Assembly: GCF_006546835.1 (NCBI RefSeq)
Contig: NZ_VICB01000014.1
Coordinates: forward strand, 1-64,000
DNA length: 64,000 nt
From: Actinomyces johnsonii
GTDB taxonomy: Bacteria > Actinomycetota > Actinomycetes > Actinomycetales > Actinomycetaceae
Direction of reading: 5' to 3'
The stretch's first letter is position 1. Each line of letters opens with the position of its first letter. Positions 51,057 through 64,000 of the stretch are shown in pieces. The notes beneath the pieces are model-generated. The model was given only the letters and a program-made list of their open reading frames with translations, did not search any database and was not told where the DNA came from. Made by a program: the position numbers and the translations under genes.

Positions 51057-52715
51057 TTAGGCGGGTGACTGGGCGGCCTGCTTGATGCGGCTGGTCAGTT
51101 CGGTGACCTGGTTGAAGGTGGAGCGCCGTTCTGCCATGAGGGTGCGGATCTTCTTGTCGGCGCTCATGACCGTGGTGTGGTCGCGCCCGCCGAACTCCCG
51201 GCCGATCTTGGGCAGGGAGAGGTCGGTGAGTTCGCGGCACAGGTACATGGCGATATGGCGGGCCGAGACCATGGTGCGCGAGCGGTTGGCCGAGCACAGG
51301 TCGTCGATGGTGATACCGAAGTAGTCGGCGGTCTGCGCCATGATGAGGGAAGTGGTGATCTCCTGGCCTTCGGGGTCGGAGATGATGTCTTTGAGGACCA
51401 TCTCGGCCAGGGTCTGGTCGACGGGCTGCTTGTTGAGCGAGGCGAAGGCCGTCACGCGGATGAGTGCGCCCTCGAGCTCTCGGATGTTGGTGGTGATGCG
51501 CGAGGCGATGTACTCCAGGACGTCGAAGGGCAGATCGAGGCCCTCGGCAGTGCCCTTGCGGGAGAGGATCGCGATGCGGGTCTCCAGATCCGGGGGCTGG
51601 ACGTCGGCCAGCAGGCCCCACTCGAAGCGCGAGCGCAGGCGCTCGTCGAGTCCGCCCAGTGCCTTGGGGGGCTGGTCGGAGGTGAGAACGACCTGCTTGC
51701 CCGAGGAGTGCAGGGAGTTGAAAGTGTGGAAGAACTCCTCGAGGGTGGACTCCTTGCCCTGGAGGAACTGGATGTCATCCACCAGGAGAATATCGACCTC
51801 GCGGTAGCGTCGCTTGAACCCCTCCATGCGACCGTCGTCCTGATTGCCGTCGCGCACGCAGGCGATGAAGTCGGAGACGAAGACCTCTGAATTGACGTAC
51901 TTGACGCGGATTCCCGGGTTGAGCGTCTGGGAGTAGTGGCCGATGGCGTGCAGGAGGTGGGTCTTGCCCAGGCCTGAGCCTCCGTAGATGAACAGGGGGT
52001 TGTAGGCGCGGGCCGGAGCCTCGGCGACGGCCAGGGCCGTGGCATGGGCGAACCGGTTGGACGAGCCGGTGACGTAGGTGTCGAAGGTGTAGCGCGGGTT
52101 GAGCTGGGAGACGTCGTTGGCCGCCGTCGGCGTGAGCAGTCCGGTAGGACTCTGGGGGCCGATCACCCCGGGACTGTAGGCGCCGGAGAATCCTGACATG
52201 GACGGCAGGGAGCCTGATGTCGGTGAGGGTGCCGATGCCGCGGAGGCCTGGGAACGGGGTGCCGGCGAAGGTGCTGATGATGCCGGATAGGTTGACGGGT
52301 CCCCGATCTGTTCGCCGTAGGCGGGTGCGGCTGCGCTAGCGGTGCCGGGCGCTGCGGGCGGGGCTGACACGGGTGACACTCCCGACGGCGATGGTGATGG
52401 TGACGCCGTGGTCAGGTTGACGGGCTCGGGGGTCACGGGCGGCATCGGGGTTCTCGAGACCTCCGAGGAGGTGTCGACCGTGACCTCGATGGGCATGGGG
52501 CGTCCCCAGACCTGGGTGACGGCGGCACTGATCGGGCCGCGTGCCTGCTCGACGATGTCCTTGGCAAAGGCCGATCCGACGACGAGGACGAGGGTGCCGT
52601 CGACATCGATGAGATGGGTCATGCGAATCATGGACATCTTGCCCTGGCCCAGCTCTCCGGAGCTGGAGAGCACCTCGAGGGCGGAGAGCCATTTGGTGTT
52701 GGCGGCGTCGGGCAC
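51057..52715 (-). CDS. dnaA: Chromosomal replication initiator DnaA
   Basis: A 552-residue initiator ATPase. Domain I begins at [21 protein letters not shown] long Pro/Ser/Ala-rich domain II follows (about 95-210). Domain III (AAA+) has Walker [18 protein letters not shown] (about 247), Walker [11 protein letters not shown] (about 308) and the arginine finger region LRSRFEWGL. Domain IV carries the DnaA signature [16 protein letters not shown] (about 511). GTG 52715 was chosen because CAGGAG stands six bases before it; an upstream open frame to 52913 lacks a ribosome site. Confidence 0.97.
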
Positions 52716-53302
52716 GACGGACTCCTGATCGGCATGGTTGGTATTTCCCGTGATCGCAACCCGACCGGTGTCGGCCAGGGCACTGCACCGACCATGACTG
52801 GGACGTGCGGCCCCGGCGAACCGGGTGGTCTCGATTGGGCGTCCCATCATGCTGTCTCTCCACAGCCTTGTCCACACCTGGGGACACAGAGAGTAATGAC
52901 TCACAGGCGTCATTCAGGATAAATGCTGGGAATGTTAGGGTTGTTCGATCTCGATCGTGTGGCACGAGCCCGCCGAATGACGAATGTTTAGCGATTTACG
53001 GGCCTACTGAGAAGATGCACACAGCTCAGTGAGTTATCCACATATCCGCAAGCTTGTGGACGGCCGACTTCCCACAGCGGTGGATGCCGCGAGCCCTCTC
53101 TTGTGGATCTCCTGTGGATAAGCGCGGATAACGTCATCGGTCACAGTCGGCCACATCCGTTTGACCGGCAAGAGGGCCAAACGTAGGCTGTTGCAGACGT
53201 TCGTGCGGAGTCAGGTCCCGAACCATGGGGCAGCCGGACGAGCGACAGTGCCGCGAGCCTCGCGATGCACTGTTCCGATCACCTCAAGCAGGAGTTAAGC
53301 CC
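52716..53302. other. oriC: oriC region, dnaA-rpmH spacer
   Basis: A 587-bp spacer between divergent dnaA and rpmH, the standard actinobacterial origin position. Perfect DnaA boxes: TTGTCCACA at 52868-52876, TTATCCACA at 53034-53042 and TGTGGATAA at 53113-53121. Weaker matches are TGTGGATCT (53102-53110) and TGTGGACGG (53055-53063). No strongly AT-rich unwinding tract is obvious; the most AT-rich part is near 52918-53000. It also carries the dnaA and rpmH promoters. Confidence 0.85.
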
Positions 53303-56821: not shown

Positions 56822-57724
56822 TTGTCCGGATCGTCTATCTTCGATCAGCTCCAGGCCGAGCACCTCGCCCTTGACGAGGTAGCGGGTGGAGAGTTCCCAC
56901 ATCCCGAGCGAACCCGCGTCGTTGCGGTCGCAAACCAGAAAGGCGGCGTCGGAAAGACATCGACGGCCGTCAATCTCGCCGCGGCTCTGGCCGAGGGAGG
57001 GTTGCATGTGCTCGTCATCGATGCCGACTCACAGGGCAATGCCTCGACGGCGCTGGGGGTAGAGCACGATGATGACAAGGCATCCATATACGACGTGCTC
57101 GTCGATGGGATGGCCATCAAGGATGTGGTGGCCAAGACCCGATTCTGCGAGACGCTGTGGTGCGTTCCTGCAACGATCGACGTGGCCGCCGTGGAGATCG
57201 AACTGATTTCCACTGCGGAGCGGGAGTCAAGGCTGCGGCGCGCACTGGTGGACTACCTGGTTTCACGTGAAACCGACGGACAGGACCCTCTTGACTACGT
57301 CATCATTGACTGCCCGCCGAGTCTCGGCATTATGACGATCAATGCCTTCGTTGCCGCTGACGAGGTTCTCATTCCGATGCAGGCCGAGTACTACGCCCTC
57401 GAGGGACTGGCTCTGCTGACACGCTCCATCGATCGGATCGCTCGCATTCACAATCCGGGTCTGGGTGTTTCGATGATCGTGCTGACTATGTTCGATGGGC
57501 GTACCACTCTGGCTCGTGAAGTGGAGTCCGAAGTTCGTTCCTATTTCCCTAACGCGACGCTGGACACTAAGGTTCCGCGTTCGATTCGTGTTGCCGAGGC
57601 CCCCTCCTTCGGCGCTCCTGTGGTGTTCTGGGATCCCCGGTCCACCGGCGCGATTGCGTATAAGAAAATGGCTCGTGAGGTTGCCCTACGGGGCGCCCCC
57701 GGAAATGAAGGCGAGGAAGCCTAA
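56822..57724 (+). CDS. parA: Chromosome partitioning ATPase ParA
   Basis: A 300-residue Walker-type ATPase (Soj/ParA). Deviant Walker [21 protein letters not shown] lies near residue 40, Walker A' [15 protein letters not shown] follows, and Walker B is [11 protein letters not shown]. The N-terminal 35 residues are a short extension. It forms a nucleoid-bound gradient that moves ParB-parS complexes. The start is TTG 56822 with GAGGAGAAGCAGG upstream. A parS site lies inside the gene at 57260, encoding VSRET. The stop overlaps parB (TAATG). Confidence 0.96.
57260..57273. promoter_or_regulatory. parS: parS site (inside parA)
   Basis: Perfect GTTTCACGTGAAAC, the consensus ParB-binding palindrome; read in the parA frame it encodes VSRET. 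Confidence 0.95.
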
Positions 57725-59364
57725 TGGCTCAGAAACGGCGCGGACTTGGACGGGGTCTGGAGGCGCTGATTCCAGACGCGCAGAAGGAGAAGGCATCTGC
57801 TTCCCGCCCTTCGGACGTGTTCTTCCCCGAGTCGCGGGAAGCTGAGACCCACAACGGGGGCGAGAAAGTACACGTCGACTCTGCTCCCGAGACTGATGCT
57901 GCACAGGAGGGCCGAAATACTCACGATCTGACTGCCGCACTTCTGGCTCCGTCTCAGCGGAAACGTGCCTCCAAGACCCGCTCGACATCATCCAAGACAA
58001 CGGGGAAGAGCAAGCGGACGACGTCCGTTTCACGTGAAACCGTCGCGGATTCCGCCGGTAGGACGCGTGCTTCCAAGACGAAGGATGAAAAGGCGACATC
58101 GGCTGGGACGTCAACGAAGCATGGCCGGTCTACCAGTGCCGTGACGCAGAAGCGTTCGTCGAAGAAGGTATTGGAGGAGACCCAGAGAAGTTCTGAGGCT
58201 GCCGAGGAGGCGAAGGCCGACGAGCTGCGACCACAATCAGAGACCGTTGAAGCAGCGCCCGTGGCGACCGAGACGTCAGCGAGCGATGACGTGGATGCGG
58301 TTGATAACGCTGGTGGTGAGCCTGCCTCGCAGAGCATGGATACCTCCGAGGATCTTCCTGTTTCACGTGAAACCGCGGAGAAGCAGTCCTCGAGCGAGGA
58401 GTCTGAGCCCTCTCCTTCCGAGGCTGTTCGAACCGGCACGGAGCCAGCTGGACCAGAAGCTCGTGTCGACGAGCATGCCACTACTCACGATGATCTCGAT
58501 GCCGCTGAAAGCGATGGTCCTGATCTCGTTCCGGTACCCGGCGCGCATTTTGCAGAAATTCCGGTCGGTCTGATCCATCCGAACCCTCGCCAGCCTCGAC
58601 AGGTATTCGATGAGGAGGACATCTCCGAACTTGCCGCCTCCATCGCGGAAGTGGGGCTCCTCCAGCCGATCGTGGTGAGGGAGGTCCACACCGCTGAGGG
58701 AGAGGATCCGCGCTACGAGCTCATCATGGGTGAGCGTCGCCTGCGCGCCTCTAAGGAAGCCGGCTTGGACAAGATCCCGGCAGTGGTCCGGGATACCGAC
58801 GACGTCGATATGCTGCGGGACGCACTGCTGGAGAATCTGCACCGCGTTCAGCTCAATCCTCTTGAAGAGGCTGCGGCCTATCAGCAGCTGCTGGAGGACT
58901 TCCAGTGCACCCACGCAGAACTGTCGGAGCGGATTGCACGGTCTCGTTCTCAGATTTCCAACACGCTGCGGCTCATGAAGCTGCCGCCGCTGGTTCAGCG
59001 CAGGCTTGCTGCGAATGTCATCTCAGCCGGACACGCCCGCGCTCTCCTTGGCCTTCCGAATGCCGCGGAGATGGAGCGCCTCGCTCAGCGAGTCGTGGCC
59101 GAGGGCCTTTCGGTTCGTGCCACGGAGGAGCTCGTTGCTCTTCATGAGGAATCGGATCCGGGCTCGGATCAGCCGAGAGTTCTACGTGCCCGCAGTACTC
59201 CTCTCCCCGCGCTTTCGACGCGGCTTTCCGATGCATTTGATACTCGCGTCAAGGTCACCCGTGGGGCGAAGAAAGGGCGCATCACCATCGAGTTCGCTGG
59301 TGATGAGGATCTTGCGCGCATCGTCGGTGCCCTGGCGCCGGGAACGTCTCTCGACGAAGAGTAG
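57724..59364 (+). CDS. parB: Chromosome partitioning protein ParB, with long N-terminal insert
   Basis: A 546-residue CTP-dependent DNA clamp, much longer than the usual 300 or so. [17 protein letters not shown] is the N-terminal ParA-stimulating segment. About 260 low-complexity residues follow, first Lys/Ser/Ala/Thr-rich and then acidic. The core begins at [20 protein letters not shown] and has CTP-site motifs [11 protein letters not shown] (about 336) and [18 protein letters not shown] (about 372), then the parS-binding helix-turn-helix (TQAELSERI-like [20 protein letters not shown]). The C-terminus is the dimerisation domain. Two parS sites lie in the insert, each encoding VSRET. Confidence 0.95.
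58027..58040. promoter_or_regulatory. parS: parS site (inside parB)
   Basis: Perfect GTTTCACGTGAAAC in the low-complexity insert of parB, encoding VSRET. Confidence 0.95.
58360..58373. promoter_or_regulatory. parS: parS site (inside parB)
   Basis: Perfect GTTTCACGTGAAAC in the parB insert, again encoding VSRET, 333 bp after the previous site. Confidence 0.95.
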
Positions 59365-59487
59365 ACCGTACCAGGCTTACGAACACTCGTGGGGTCGAGG
59401 CAGTACTGCCTCGACCCCACGTGCTATCGATCAGAGACCAGCCCCGTTGATGCTCCGCTTCATGTCCGTAAGGGGGATGCGCCCGAT

Positions 59488-59501
59488 GTTTCACGTGAAA
59501 C
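59488..59501. promoter_or_regulatory. parS: parS site
   Basis: Perfect GTTTCACGTGAAAC, 124 bp after the parB stop and before the ISAs1 remnant. Confidence 0.95.
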
Positions 59502-59649
59502 CGACGAGTGCGCCGGCTCGAGATCTCTGCCCTATAGGAGAGTTCTGAGTTAGACGCAGGGGTCGGCAAGGTCGGTGGGTGAGGGCGGCTGAATCGGTTT
59601 GGCCGAGATGGTATGTCGCTGAGACGGAAGCGCGGGTCCCGTAGGGACG

Positions 59650-60490
59650 ATGACATGGGAGCACGCCACCGACCTGACCGTCGCCGTCCTGCAATCCCTG
59701 GGGTGGAGGCGAGGCTGGCCCTGCCCTCAGAGTCCACCATCCGCAGGGTCCTGCAGGACCTGGATCCCGCAGACGTAAATGCCGCCTGAGGTCCTGGTTC
59801 TGTACGTGTACCGGCACCATCGAAGAAGGAACAGTGGTCGTGGTGGACGGCAAGACCATGGGCGGGGCCCGCCAGGGGCAGGCATCGGCGCCTCATCTCC
59901 TGTCCTCCCTGGACCAGGCCACCGGCGCCGTGCTGTCCCAGGAGCGGGTGGAGAATAAGTTCAACCAGAAATCCCCTCCCTACCGGTCCTGCTCGAACCG
60001 TTAGACCTCGACAGGGTAGTGGTCACCGCCGATGCAATGCATACCCAGGTGAACACAGCCGAGTAGATCGTCGGTCGGCGTGGTCACTACCTTCTCACGC
60101 CTCTGGGCAACCAGAAGACCCTGCACCGCACTTTCACGGCCCTGCCGTGGAAGAACGTCCCGTCCACCTCCTGGGTCGACACCGGACACGGGCGGCGAGT
60201 GCGGCGCACCGTTAAGGCCGTCGAGATCCCCGCCTGGGTGGACTTCCCGGGGCTGCTCAGGTGGTTCAGTTCCGACACACGCCAGGACCATCAAGGGCAG
60301 GAGGCACGTTGAAGTGGTCTACCGGGTCTGCTCCCTACTCATGTACCACGCCCAACCCGAAGCCATCGTCGCCTGGACTGAGGCGCCAGAGCCGCTATCG
60401 CCTCAACCACCGGATCCCTGTCAAGACGCCCCAAACGAGCTATCAGACTACTAACCCGACCAACCACCTCAACCAACTCTGCCAACTCCT
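59650..60490 (+). mobile_element. Decayed ISAs1-type transposase inside the parS array
   Basis: Scattered frames match ISAs1-family DDE transposases: LPSESTIRRVLQDLDPADVN (59714-59788), then VVVDGKTMGGARQGQAS (around 59840-59890), VVVTADAMHTQVNT (around 60020-60060), SWVDTGHGRRVRRTVKAVEI (around 60170-60230), and GRRHVEVVYRVCSL (around 60300-60340). They are separated by stops (e.g. TGA after VNAA, TAG after VNTAE) and frameshifts, and the N-terminus is missing. The edges are approximate; terminal repeats were not found. It is more GC-rich than the surrounding spacer. Confidence 0.8.
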
Positions 60491-60610
60491 AGAGTCAGAT
60501 GCATCGTGTGCCTGACGACAAGCAGCTGAGGAAGCTTCCCACGTTCTTCGGCTAATCGAGAGAGAGGACCAGGACGCGATTGTTCTGCAGTCGAGTGGGC
60601 GACGATGTGT

Positions 60611-60624
60611 GTTTCACGTGAAAC
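60611..60624. promoter_or_regulatory. parS: parS site
   Basis: Perfect site; with flanking bases it is the full 16-mer TGTTTCACGTGAAACA (60610-60625). Confidence 0.96.
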
Positions 60625-60926
60625 ACAGGCGTGTATGGCCATGATCCGACAGCTTCTGAATCAGGTGACTGAACAGAGGAGAATCGGGAATGTGTGGAAC
60701 GTGGGGCTGACCTGGTGGGACGGATACCAAGTGGCGCTTCATCCCTGAGCTGAGTGTCCGCTGGCTGTCCATCGGCAATGAGATGCTCGCCGCGCGTCGT
60801 CGGGAGAAGGACTGGGCAACAGAATCGGTTCCCGAGTGTCTGGGGAACAAAGCCTGTTGATGACGCCGACGGTGCCCACGAGCCTGTCATGTCGTTCGTC
60901 ATCATGTCACTGTCGAGATGCTGGCA

Positions 60927-60944
60927 CCCTCCCCCGGGGGAGGG
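60927..60944. repeat. 18-bp GC palindrome in the parS array
   Basis: CCCTCCCCCGGGGGAGGG is perfectly self-complementary. No associated gene is seen; it may be a structural element or chance. Confidence 0.5.
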
Positions 60945-61151
60945 AGGAGAATAGATGATCCTTGAGGGTAGAGAAGGTGAGAGCTGGACTGAAGCGATCC
61001 TGCTGCAAGGAGGCCGTCCGAATCCGTGACTGAGAACTGCTCGTCGATTGCAGCAGATGTCTGAATCGCTTGTCTTGGGTCTCGTACAATCGCACCTCGC
61101 ATACCGTTGGTGTGTTCCGTGAGTGTCTGACACAGGACGAGTGCAGTGCTG

Positions 61152-61165
61152 GTTTCACGTGAAAC
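61152..61165. promoter_or_regulatory. parS: parS site
   Basis: Perfect GTTTCACGTGAAAC, 541 bp after the previous site. Confidence 0.95.
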
Positions 61166-61417
61166 CGAAGGTACGAAGCGAGAGGTTCTGGATGACGATG
61201 GGCATGAGACGTTCCGCAGTTCCGTCTTTCTAACGACGCAGGAGGGCCCCTTGCTATCGGCTTCATCGATGCGGTCAGATCGGCGTCAGAGGCACTGCGC
61301 CGCCCCGCAGCTGCACCCGATGAGGGGCCGTCTATCTGTAGACGCTGTTGCGAAGCGGGAACAGTGGCCGGGGGGTACCTGATATCGAAGGAGGACGGGT
61401 GATATCCGGAACCAGCT

Positions 61418-61431
61418 GTTTCACGTGAAAC
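61418..61431. promoter_or_regulatory. parS: parS site
   Basis: Perfect GTTTCACGTGAAAC, 266 bp after the previous site. Confidence 0.95.
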
Positions 61432-61572
61432 CGAGGGCGCGCATAGAGTGTGGATAGCGCCTGAAATGAAAGGGTGTCCTAGGAGCTTGATACGGCGGCC
61501 AACAGTTGCCTGATTCCACGTGGGTAGTGCTTTGATCGATGACTACTCATCTCGAGACTTGACGGCAGGAGG

Positions 61573-61616
61573 GGGTGAGCCAACGGCACGGTAACTTACC
61601 GTTCTGTCTCTCACCC
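61573..61616. repeat. Nested hairpin in the parS array
   Basis: Outer arms GGGTGAG (61573-61579) and CTCACCC (61610-61616) enclose an inner palindrome ACGGTAA-C-TTACCGT (61588-61602). It could be a terminator or protein site; there is no gene next to it. Confidence 0.5.
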
Positions 61617-61777
61617 AGGATGATCTGACCGGCAGGGCGAAGCACGAGGTGGAACGTGACACTTCTCCTCCGGCTTCTCTTGAAGTCGATGCGGCAACCG
61701 GCGGACGCTCGGTCGAGTGATGCTGTCGAAGGGTGTCATGCGTCTATCGAGGTCTGAAAGGACGCAGATCGGATTCG

Positions 61778-61791
61778 GTTTCACGTGAAAC
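61778..61791. promoter_or_regulatory. parS: parS site
   Basis: Perfect GTTTCACGTGAAAC, 360 bp after the previous site. Confidence 0.95.
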
Positions 61792-62068
61792 ATGATCGGG
61801 TCTGAACTGATCGAGCACGCGTTGTGGGTCGCGTCGTGAATCTCATGAGGGACTAATTCATCGGCGTCGGGTTGGTTTGCATTCACCCTTGCCCTGTCTG
61901 GAGACTCACCACCCTTGATTACTGAGGCGATGAGGCAAGATACTGGGAATGCTCGTTCAGCGTCCTAGCGGTGTCTGCGACCGTCGAGCGAGAGCGAACT
62001 GCGGGGTAGAGCTTGCGAGCAGTATCTGACGCGGCTCGCGCACGTAGATTTGCTTGTAGCGAGCTCCG

Positions 62069-62082
62069 GTTTCACGTGAAAC
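62069..62082. promoter_or_regulatory. parS: parS site
   Basis: Perfect GTTTCACGTGAAAC, 291 bp after the previous site. Confidence 0.95.
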
Positions 62083-62408
62083 ACGACTGCTCCTAAACAG
62101 GTCGAATAGGACAACTGTGCCGCCGGGTTTGGCGGTACCCAGGATGTGATGGTCGAACGAAGAACTCCGGCAGTGGGCGGTCATCATTGCTGACGATGTG
62201 ACTCTTCTTCAGGACGATGACGGGTGTCTCTATAACGATGCGTGGGCGCAGGACTGTGTAGGGATGGGGCATGAGAAGAGCACCTTCCCAATCTCCCCAT
62301 CACCGCACCGCAAAGAGAAGCTGAAGAATCTCGTTACTTCGTTGGTGACGTCTTCAGTGAACGCTGTGGATGCTCCTTGACCAGATGAGAGATCGTGGGA
62401 GAGGGGTG

Positions 62409-62422
62409 GTTTCACGTGAAAC
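62409..62422. promoter_or_regulatory. parS: parS site
   Basis: Perfect GTTTCACGTGAAAC, 340 bp after the previous site. Confidence 0.95.
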
Positions 62423-62748
62423 AGGATCTGGGAGGCCAGGTGCTTGGTGATCTGAGCTGGCGATACTGATCTGCACATCATCCAAGATGTGGTTGAGACC
62501 ATCGACCGGGACCCCGCCCCTACTCTGTTGCTGCCTCGCCGAGGAGAGTGGGGAACGAGTCGACCTGTAGATGTGATTGCAGATGATACTGAACGCAATG
62601 ACGAGGTGACGTCGGCGGAGTAGTCGGCAGTGAAACCCCAGTTCATTGATCTCTGACGAGACGTGCATCCTGAGAAGCCTCGGTGGGGAGCTCGGCCTTG
62701 ATCAAGGAGAGTGGACCGCTGATCGCCAGTGCTGTCACCCTGATTCGT

Positions 62749-62762
62749 GTTTCACGTGAAAC
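62749..62762. promoter_or_regulatory. parS: parS site
   Basis: Perfect GTTTCACGTGAAAC, again 340 bp after the previous site. Confidence 0.95.
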
Positions 62763-63092
62763 CTGATGATCTCGTGCAAGCAAGAGGCACAGTTAACTGG
62801 TTGGTCTGGAACGAGTCCGTTTCTGCACGGGAAACAAGTAGCTTCCATACGGCTCCTCTTCATATGTTCCCTTCGTACTGGCACACCGGCATATGCAGCG
62901 GACGGTCCCGGCTCGAGTCGAAACGAGTACGCACAGGAGACACCATGCCCGGCACAAGAACGCCGCTGCCAAAGTTGGCATCAGGATGGCCCAGCGGGAG
63001 AGGCCCGCGTGTTCGCGGGAGCTCGGGTGACGTCGTCTGCTATGCGGTATCTCTGATCCATATGATCTAATCATTGCGGACGGGAAGACTAT

Positions 63093-63106
63093 GTTTCACG
63101 TGAAAC
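63093..63106. promoter_or_regulatory. parS: parS site
   Basis: Perfect GTTTCACGTGAAAC, 344 bp after the previous site. Confidence 0.95.
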
Positions 63107-63472
63107 GGTGATTGTGGTGGCTGCAGCGGCGGGAACAAGATCGACTGTTTCTCGGAATCGGGTGAGTGGCAATCATGCGGCGTTCATCGGCAGCCCCCTC
63201 CCCTGAGGAGGAGGACCGGAGAGAACCTGACGAGAACAAGTACGGTCAGAAAGATGCCACAGACATGAAGATGAAGGTACGCCACGTGGATGCAACCTGG
63301 CCTTGTACCGTTGTGCTGAACGGCTGGAGCCGGCTAGCAGAGCGAGCTGGCGCTCACGGTGTGCTAGCCGCCCCTTCGGTTCGTCAGGCATTCGTGGGCG
63401 ATGTATCTGATCCCGATGATCATGACACTGGTGCGACGGTGGAGCAGTGCGTCATTGCGATGTCGATCCGTG

Positions 63473-63486
63473 GTTTCACGTGGAAC
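63473..63486. promoter_or_regulatory. parS: Degenerate parS site
   Basis: GTTTCACGTGGAAC, one base off the consensus, 29 bp before a perfect site. Confidence 0.7.
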
Positions 63487-63501
63487 ATGAGTTGATCGGT
63501 G

Positions 63502-63515
63502 GTTTCACGTGAAAC
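63502..63515. promoter_or_regulatory. parS: parS site
   Basis: Perfect GTTTCACGTGAAAC, 409 bp after the last perfect site. Confidence 0.95.
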
Positions 63516-63638
63516 ATCACGGGAATCGTTACGAGGCTCCTGGATGTAGCATTCCGCACTCTCGAAGTCTTGCCGGGCGGTCAGTGGTTGGAGCCTTCAT
63601 CGGCGCGGGCTTCGGGCTATATACATCGCCGGTATGAC

Positions 63639-63685
63639 GGCGGTAGAGGTACGGGACGGTAGCTGCACCGTCGTTCCCTACCGCC
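63639..63685. repeat. Hairpin upstream of the ddl terminator
   Basis: GGCGGTAG pairs with CTACCGCC at the ends, with GACGGT / ACCGTC inside. It lies just beyond the ddl terminator and may be a second termination structure. Confidence 0.5.
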
Positions 63686-63700
63686 CTCTCCTCTCCATAC

Positions 63701-63739
63701 AACAAGCGGCTCCGCTCATTCAGAGCGGAGCCGCTTGTT
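63701..63739 (-). terminator. Terminator of the D-Ala-D-Ala ligase gene
   Basis: Perfect 17-bp arms (63701-63717 and 63723-63739) with a 5-base loop. The right arm shares three bases with the parS site at 63737-63750. Confidence 0.85.
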
Positions 63740-63750
63740 TCACGTGAAAC
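63737..63750. promoter_or_regulatory. parS: parS site
   Basis: Perfect GTTTCACGTGAAAC between the ddl stop codon and its terminator hairpin. Confidence 0.95.
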
Positions 63751-63755
63751 AAGGC

Positions 63756-64000
63756 CTAGGGACGGACGAACGGGTTCCTCACGAGCGTGTCATACAGGTC
63801 CTCCAAATCGCCCTCCGCTTTCGCAGCGATCGGTAGCAGGGATGTTTCGGTCATTCCTGGAATGACATTGACGTCGATGAACCAGGGCGAGCCCGCTTCG
63901 TCGAGAATCAGATCGGTTCGAGAGAGGTTTCCGAGCCCAAGCGTCTTGTGGACGGTGATAGCAGTGTCTTTGACCATGCCGATGGCAGAGTCATCCAGAC
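63756..64000 (-). CDS. ddl: D-alanine-D-alanine ligase, C-terminal part
   Basis: Only the last 81 codons are in the window; the 5' end continues past 64000. The minus strand reads TLGLGNLSRTDLILDEAGSP then WFIDVNVIPGMTETSLLPIAA, the ATP-grasp metal site and C-terminal motif (VNxxPGMT) of D-Ala-D-Ala ligases, which make the peptidoglycan precursor dipeptide. A related ATP-grasp ligase is less likely because of the TETSLLPIAA ending. Confidence 0.9.
   Translation of the reverse strand, partial: LDDSAIGMVKDTAITVHKTLGLGNLSRTDLILDEAGSPWFIDVNVIPGMTETSLLPIAAKAEGDLEDLYDTLVRNPFVRP

Follow-up and report, generated by a model that had tools for sequence, protein, structure and literature searches.

Myxococcus xanthus carries 22 putative parS sites in a 3-kb chromosomal cluster near parAB, with the consensus TGTTCCACGTGGAACG; the cluster lies about 4 kb upstream of parA, and parAB about 35 kb from oriC (PMC3899335). 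In Corynebacterium glutamicum, parS1–10 are identical, nine of them intergenic, and are spread over 35 kb at 73 kb from oriC, and folding depends on ParB and SMC (PMC7083940). Streptomyces venezuelae has 16 parS within about 200 kb and S. coelicolor has 24 (PMC4852455), while a single parS cluster seems commoner in plasmid systems (PMC10387095). Here we describe a parS array in Actinomyces johnsonii. The window, the whole stretch of DNA that was analyzed, comprises 64,000 nucleotides (assembly GCF_006546835.1, contig NZ_VICB01000014.1, positions 1 to 64,000, forward strand) and holds 14 exact copies of the parS 14-mer GTTTCACGTGAAAC in and next to parA and parB, the genes of a predicted ParABS chromosome partition system.

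All 14 copies, and a one-mismatch copy at 63473, were found exactly where the earlier note had placed them. Matches with up to two mismatches numbered 15 in the window; 100 dinucleotide shuffles gave 0.06 on average. When the whole assembly was scanned (3.35 Mb in 42 contigs, completeness given as 100%), 15 exact copies of the 14-mer were found, all on the contig of the window (C14, 57260–66139). The fifteenth, at contig position 66126 (L040:10126), lies beyond the window end, between minus-strand open reading frames (ORFs) past ddl (L040 8712–10100 and 10263–11849). Thus, 15 exact sites fall within about 9 kb, 14 within 6.5 kb and 11 within 4.4 kb. No exact copy was scattered elsewhere over the 42 contigs as a dispersed repeat would be, and the only off-cluster match with up to two mismatches in the assembly was a single two-mismatch copy on contig C26. 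The earlier note had proposed a compact, largely non-coding cluster adjoining parB and had named equal parS density elsewhere in the genome as evidence to the contrary. None was found in the assembly, and the cluster is the only one there. "Largely non-coding" describes the 11 window sites in the gene-free pocket between parB and ddl; the sites at 57260 (parA) and at 58027 and 58360 (parB) lie inside genes. The HTH_ParB domain has one match in the whole assembly, this parB, and SMC has one full-length match above the cut-off. We infer that one ParB gene serves 15 perfect parS spread over 9 kb, the first of them about 4 kb from dnaA. The locus is very probably the centromere of the chromosome, with ParB binding and function predicted from sequence.

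With more than ten parS within a few kilobases of chromosome, the locus is a cluster of the M. xanthus type. Both are chromosomal, dense and near parAB (mean spacing in M. xanthus about 145 bp, by our division), but the window copies are identical, some within parA and parB and the rest downstream of parB, about 4 kb from dnaA. The C. glutamicum sites resemble them as one actinobacterial cluster of identical sites, yet comprise ten over 35 kb, against 15 over 9 kb with 11 in one gene-free pocket. The many Streptomyces parS also lie near oriC, though the S. venezuelae set is far more spread out. Plasmid centromeres are familiar as iteron arrays. The window shares with them a single cluster beside parB, but has no tandem iteron-like repeats: its spacers are unrelated, and we dropped the idea of a tandem array because no direct repeat other than the site was found. 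The comparison with a plasmid centromere array scaled up did not hold in this respect. Nor is such compactness foreign to chromosomes, as had been supposed, because M. xanthus and the clade relatives described below are similar. The density is unusual yet precedented, in M. xanthus and in a congener (G062, ten sites in 0.9 kb). In the open-licence literature, no title on this genus was found among the matches listed for parS and ParB or for the evolution of such arrays, and PMC7022226 and PMC12511625 contain nothing to the contrary.

Selection is confined to the 14-mer in the three related genomes in which it was measured (G151, G100 and G165; the selection results below apply to this trio only). 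Across 15 orthologous site positions, three of 45 site copies were lost, each by a single change. Variable columns numbered 3 of 210 in parS and 1,282 of 4,211 in the spacers (Fisher P 1e-27, the columns not being fully independent). Constraint stopped at the edge of the 14-mer: outside, mostly 20–45% of columns were variable, except at positions −1 and +16 (1 of 15 each). Divergence at four-fold sites of parA and the parB core was 0.21–0.23, and spacer divergence 0.11–0.26 depending on the pair; thus, the spacers evolve at about the synonymous rate. For G100 and G165, pocket divergence was 0.11 against 0.22 at four-fold sites, which hints at recombination.

Between the window and its nearest relatives, four-fold differences reached 0.39–0.53, and blastn matches of at least 45 bp between its pocket and those of close relatives were limited to the ddl edge (L061, L063) and one site (L043). 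This loss of homology fits the four-fold differences, and we claim no hypermutation. Global alignments with the window (42–45% identity) were taken as near chance, and shared-site counts from them were not used. parS is known as a 16-bp consensus. Around 376 sites, which are not independent, T or G was favoured before the 14-mer and A or C after it, a lean that would fit a 16-bp parS. C. glutamicum has 16-bp sites similar to those of Bacillus subtilis (PMC7083940).

The 14-mer was present in 148 of 151 genomes of the family and in all 49 genomes of the genus, which carry 3–20 exact sites each. In a phylum scan of 396 genomes, 268 had at least one site, and one genus of the same class had 8–33 per genome. 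We retrieved 36 of the 49 Actinomyces genomes and could measure the pocket in 35; G166 (20 sites), whose array is divided between two contigs, was for that reason excluded from the pocket counts and the tree. The 35 pockets ranged from 103 to 7,157 bp with 1–15 sites, and 19 were at least 2.8 kb long. The window falls in a clade of 11 tree rows (support 100/98) with pockets of 3.4–4.6 kb. When the parB–ddl interval was compared across the genus, as the earlier note had suggested, all ten other rows of this clade held 8–15 pocket sites, like the window, with 11–19 exact sites per genome. A site 2.34–2.47 kb past the ddl stop was kept in 28 of 35 genomes. Each of 38 loci with parA (36 from the genus, with G166 counted by its contig that carries parA, and two from other genera) had 1–3 sites in the stretch from parA to the parB stop; of these 62 sites, 61 encode VSRET (the exception is in L070), although another frame (FHVK) is open as well.

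Three relatives differed in layout. One (G062, L047) holds ten exact parS in 909 bp of a 928-bp pocket, a higher density than in the window, and has short repeats in its spacers. In another (G186, L078) the pocket is 103 bp long and ten sites lie 2.4–7.6 kb past ddl, the first eight very even: an array can lie outside the pocket, here downstream of ddl. The third (G161, L068) has a 3.1-kb pocket of 44% G+C with two sites and lacks strong edge hairpins; in this relative of lower G+C, the array may be in decay.

Elsewhere in the phylum, nine of 79 genomes of one family (f29) had at least 100 exact copies of GTTTCACGTGAAAC, and one of them (G469, loci L079–L104) had 135 in 3.6 Mb. Contig 1 of this genome starts beside an ORF that we named dnaA-like from reading the sequence. 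Among the 96 positions listed of the 135, 27 lay in the first 100 kb and 28 up to 105 kb; 72 lay in the first 0.8 Mb and 24 at 1.34–2.94 Mb. On the one side seen, the copies look like a gradient that declines away from the origin. This copy number is possibly more unusual than the Actinomyces array, and no title on it was found in the open-licence literature among the matches listed for Eggerthella, our guess at the family.

The features of the locus are collected in Table 1. Pfam E-values for ParB were 4.4e-33 (ParB_N) and 2.9e-32 (HTH_ParB), and a ParB_C match scored 21.3 bits, just below the 23.8 cut-off. In a search of PDB sequences, the protein matched solved ParB/Spo0J chains through its GERR and ENLxR stretches, which we take to act in cytidine triphosphate (CTP) binding. 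The names of the dnaA-like and ddl-like ORFs come from reading the sequence rather than from a family search, with known family features as the guide for dnaA and the name in the earlier note as a further source for ddl.

Table 1. Features of the parS array and its surroundings (positions in the window).
Feature	Position	Strand	Remarks
dnaA-like ORF	51057..52913	-	From ORF list; marks origin side, ~4.3 kb before parS 1
parA	56822..57724	+	Pfam AAA_31 2.7e-55, CbiA 3.4e-26; Walker ATPase adjoining parB
parS 1	57260..57273		Exact match; in frame in parA, VSRET; exact in 12/38 loci compared
parB	57724..59364	+	ParB_N residues 276-373, HTH_ParB 376-472; long N-terminal linker
parS 2	58027..58040		Exact match; in frame in parB linker, VSRET
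parS 3	58360..58373		Exact match; in frame in parB linker, VSRET
Non-coding pocket	59365..63755		4,391 bp, 11 exact parS, between convergent parB (+) and ddl (-)
Perfect 34-bp inverted repeat	59388..59421	+	3' of parB; putative terminator hairpin; strong by folding; absent from terminator-pattern list
parS 4	59488..59501		Exact match
Decayed insertion-sequence remnant	59560..60520	+	Between parS 4 and 5; boundaries set by us
parS 5	60611..60624		Exact match
parS 6	61152..61165		Exact match
parS 7	61418..61431		Exact match
parS 8	61778..61791		Exact match
parS 9	62069..62082		Exact match
parS 10	62409..62422		Exact match
parS 11	62749..62762		Exact match
parS 12	63093..63106		Exact match
One-mismatch parS	63473..63486		GTTTCACGTGgAAC; decayed or weaker variant
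parS 13	63502..63515		Exact match
Imperfect inverted repeat	63701..63739	-	3' of ddl; putative terminator hairpin; overlaps edge of parS 14; terminator-like match 63709-63726
parS 14	63737..63750		Exact match; between ddl stop and ddl hairpin
ddl-like ORF, 3' part	63756..64000	-	Whole ORF L040:7756-8709

The pocket has 59% G+C, against 64% in the 20 kb fetched around the locus. It contains 63 open pieces of at least 45 amino acids (aa), of which eight were searched in Pfam; the lone match (DDE_Tnp_1_assoc, weak and below cut-off) was in the insertion sequence (IS) remnant. Rfam gave nothing on the pocket above the gathering score (a single match, E 0.34). The longest ORF, 193 aa, is inside the shuffle range, and we dismissed hidden genes in the window pocket on ORF length and on the absence of Pfam (eight of 63 pieces) and Rfam support outside the IS piece. 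Relatives of the remnant exist in the same assembly: contigs C5 and C26 carry pieces 75–82% similar to it, and C13 has two short pieces. Among pockets of relatives, the longest ORF beat every shuffle in L077 (404 aa, a transposase) and L041 (279 aa); in L042 and L048, which are related to L041, it was 204 and 140 aa, inside the shuffle range. In the 24 loci whose pockets measured at least about 0.8 kb, hairpins of −30 kcal/mol or stronger were found at 39 of 48 pocket edges, compared with 2 of the 288 stretches taken from pocket interiors.

How might such an array work? In vitro, a free parS loads ParB clamps, which slide until bound roadblocks halt them; ParB profiles on the F plasmid change at promoters, and short-lived roadblocks are mild in simulation (PMC10387095). 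Following established ParABS work, each parS would load a ParB dimer, which CTP would close into a sliding clamp. The array would then most probably offer many parallel loading ports in a transcription-poor tract near the origin, bounded by convergent genes and putative terminators. As the ports would act in parallel and transcription in the tract would be low, a large ParB complex could form, to be moved by ParA and to have SMC loaded on it; the dense ParB clamp domain suggested in the earlier note is plausible. The comparison of arrays further suggests that sites may be born by duplication of parS-plus-spacer units and die by point mutation. As sites turn over and spacers drift freely, what is inherited would be the set of sites and not the sequence of the region. 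We put forward, tentatively and as a reading we would not call probable, that the locus is a bacterial counterpart of a fast-evolving regional centromere: a gene-free, transcription-poor tract whose sequence turns over nearly in full from one close species to the next, while the number and near-regular spacing of identical ParB-loading sites are selected through unit duplication and loss.

Several observations weigh against the main explanation, that the locus is the ParABS centromere of the chromosome. Some congeners have just 3–5 sites. Both pocket edges were weaker than −30 kcal/mol in G163, G158 and G161 (L053, L058 and L068), and L054, L055 and L064 each had one such edge; moreover, parS sequences were masked in the interior control of the hairpin comparison and unmasked at the edges. 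A terminator-pattern scan gave four sites, where shuffles averaged 4.1; it included the ddl hairpin and missed the parB one, and edge hairpins are in any case no proof of transcriptional silence. In 6 of 24 pockets of relatives (L041, L046, L049, L063, L071, L077), the longest ORF was above at least 95% of mononucleotide shuffles. Finally, a single parS gives near-normal segregation in C. glutamicum (PMC7083940), and one site of a four-site cluster is reported to suffice in Pseudomonas aeruginosa (PMC4368675). If single sites suffice, a need for 15 is left unexplained.

This sufficiency, as described for C. glutamicum, also favours redundant accumulation: one or a few sites would work, the rest being tolerated by-products of unit duplication whose number drifts. 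The spread of site numbers within one genus and the visible tandem duplications speak for it: parS-plus-spacer units are duplicated in L041 (71% over 325 bp), L042 and L048, and shorter spacer repeats occur in L044, L045, L047 and L064 (repeats were counted only if confirmed by blastn). So do the one-mismatch sites, which look like decayed or variant copies (31 around 37 loci; pockets hold 25 of the 31, and 12 of the 31 are GTTTCACGTGgAAC or its complement), and IS insertions in two arrays, the window remnant and the intact ORF of a Mutator-family transposase that G184 carries within its parS pocket (L077:13115–14326). A drifting set, however, should decay at the rate of the spacers, and the site positions of the trio are strongly constrained. 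We regard redundant accumulation as possible but on balance improbable.

Alternatively, regular spacing might itself be selected, for instance as the loop size between ParB complexes, instead of being left over from duplication. In 18 of the 19 arrays tested, the coefficient of variation (CV) of the gaps was lower than the mean expected at random, with P<0.05 in ten of the 19; the gaps of L054 were less even than random. Combined (Fisher) P values were 2e-10 over 12 chosen arrays with L054 left out and 1e-6 over seven with L046 and L054 left out; with these restored, they were 7e-10 (13 arrays) and 7e-6 (nine arrays), and with a single array per group 0.006 (five arrays) and 0.0002 (six arrays). 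The arrays are not fully independent, and L078 was tested on the first eight of its ten downstream sites. In the window, one long gap (1,123 bp) exists mostly because the IS remnant sits there: the spacing P was 0.08 unadjusted, 0.0003 with the IS length subtracted, and 0.004 when the one-mismatch site was also included. The window array is thus more even than random only once the remnant is allowed for. The run from 61152 to 63093 (CV 0.10) was chosen after inspection and was not used as a test.

The low P values favour selected spacing, but the unadjusted window value, the 0.004 with the one-mismatch site and the unevenness of L054 count against it, as does mean spacing that ranges from 101 bp (G062) to 837 bp (G160). 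We also looked for helical phasing of the sites and found none (all five periods P>0.1). Duplicated units of about 390 bp are direct evidence for a simpler cause: duplication of equal units together with loss of close neighbours can explain even spacing. Besides, ParB is described as spreading over kilobases (PMC7083940), so that intervals of 300 bp should matter little for coverage. Selection on spacing as such seems unlikely to us.

Could ParB here mainly repress parAB and ddl? Sites do occur within parA, within parB and beside the ddl stop. They are, however, coding or downstream of both genes and not at gene starts, and 15 sites would appear far above what autorepression needs, which makes local regulation very improbable. 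A last rival holds that the palindromes are used by some other DNA-binding protein, or that they form a dispersed repeat of the repetitive extragenic palindrome type. Nothing specific supports this suspicion, though the family with more than 100 copies in some genomes could raise it. It is hardly credible given the exact consensus, the place in and beside parA and parB, the single cluster in the assembly, the unrepeated spacers and the family-wide presence.

Chromosomes bear many parS although one is often enough, which calls for an explanation. The genus Actinomyces offers a natural series in which gene order is the same while sites number 3–20, pockets measure about 0.1–7 kb and mean spacing about 0.1–0.8 kb. 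Given this series and the clear selection on sites in the trio, models of ParB loading, sliding and bridging become testable on natural variation instead of built mutants. If the locus is indeed the counterpart of a regional centromere, array size would be an evolvable setting of ParB loading.

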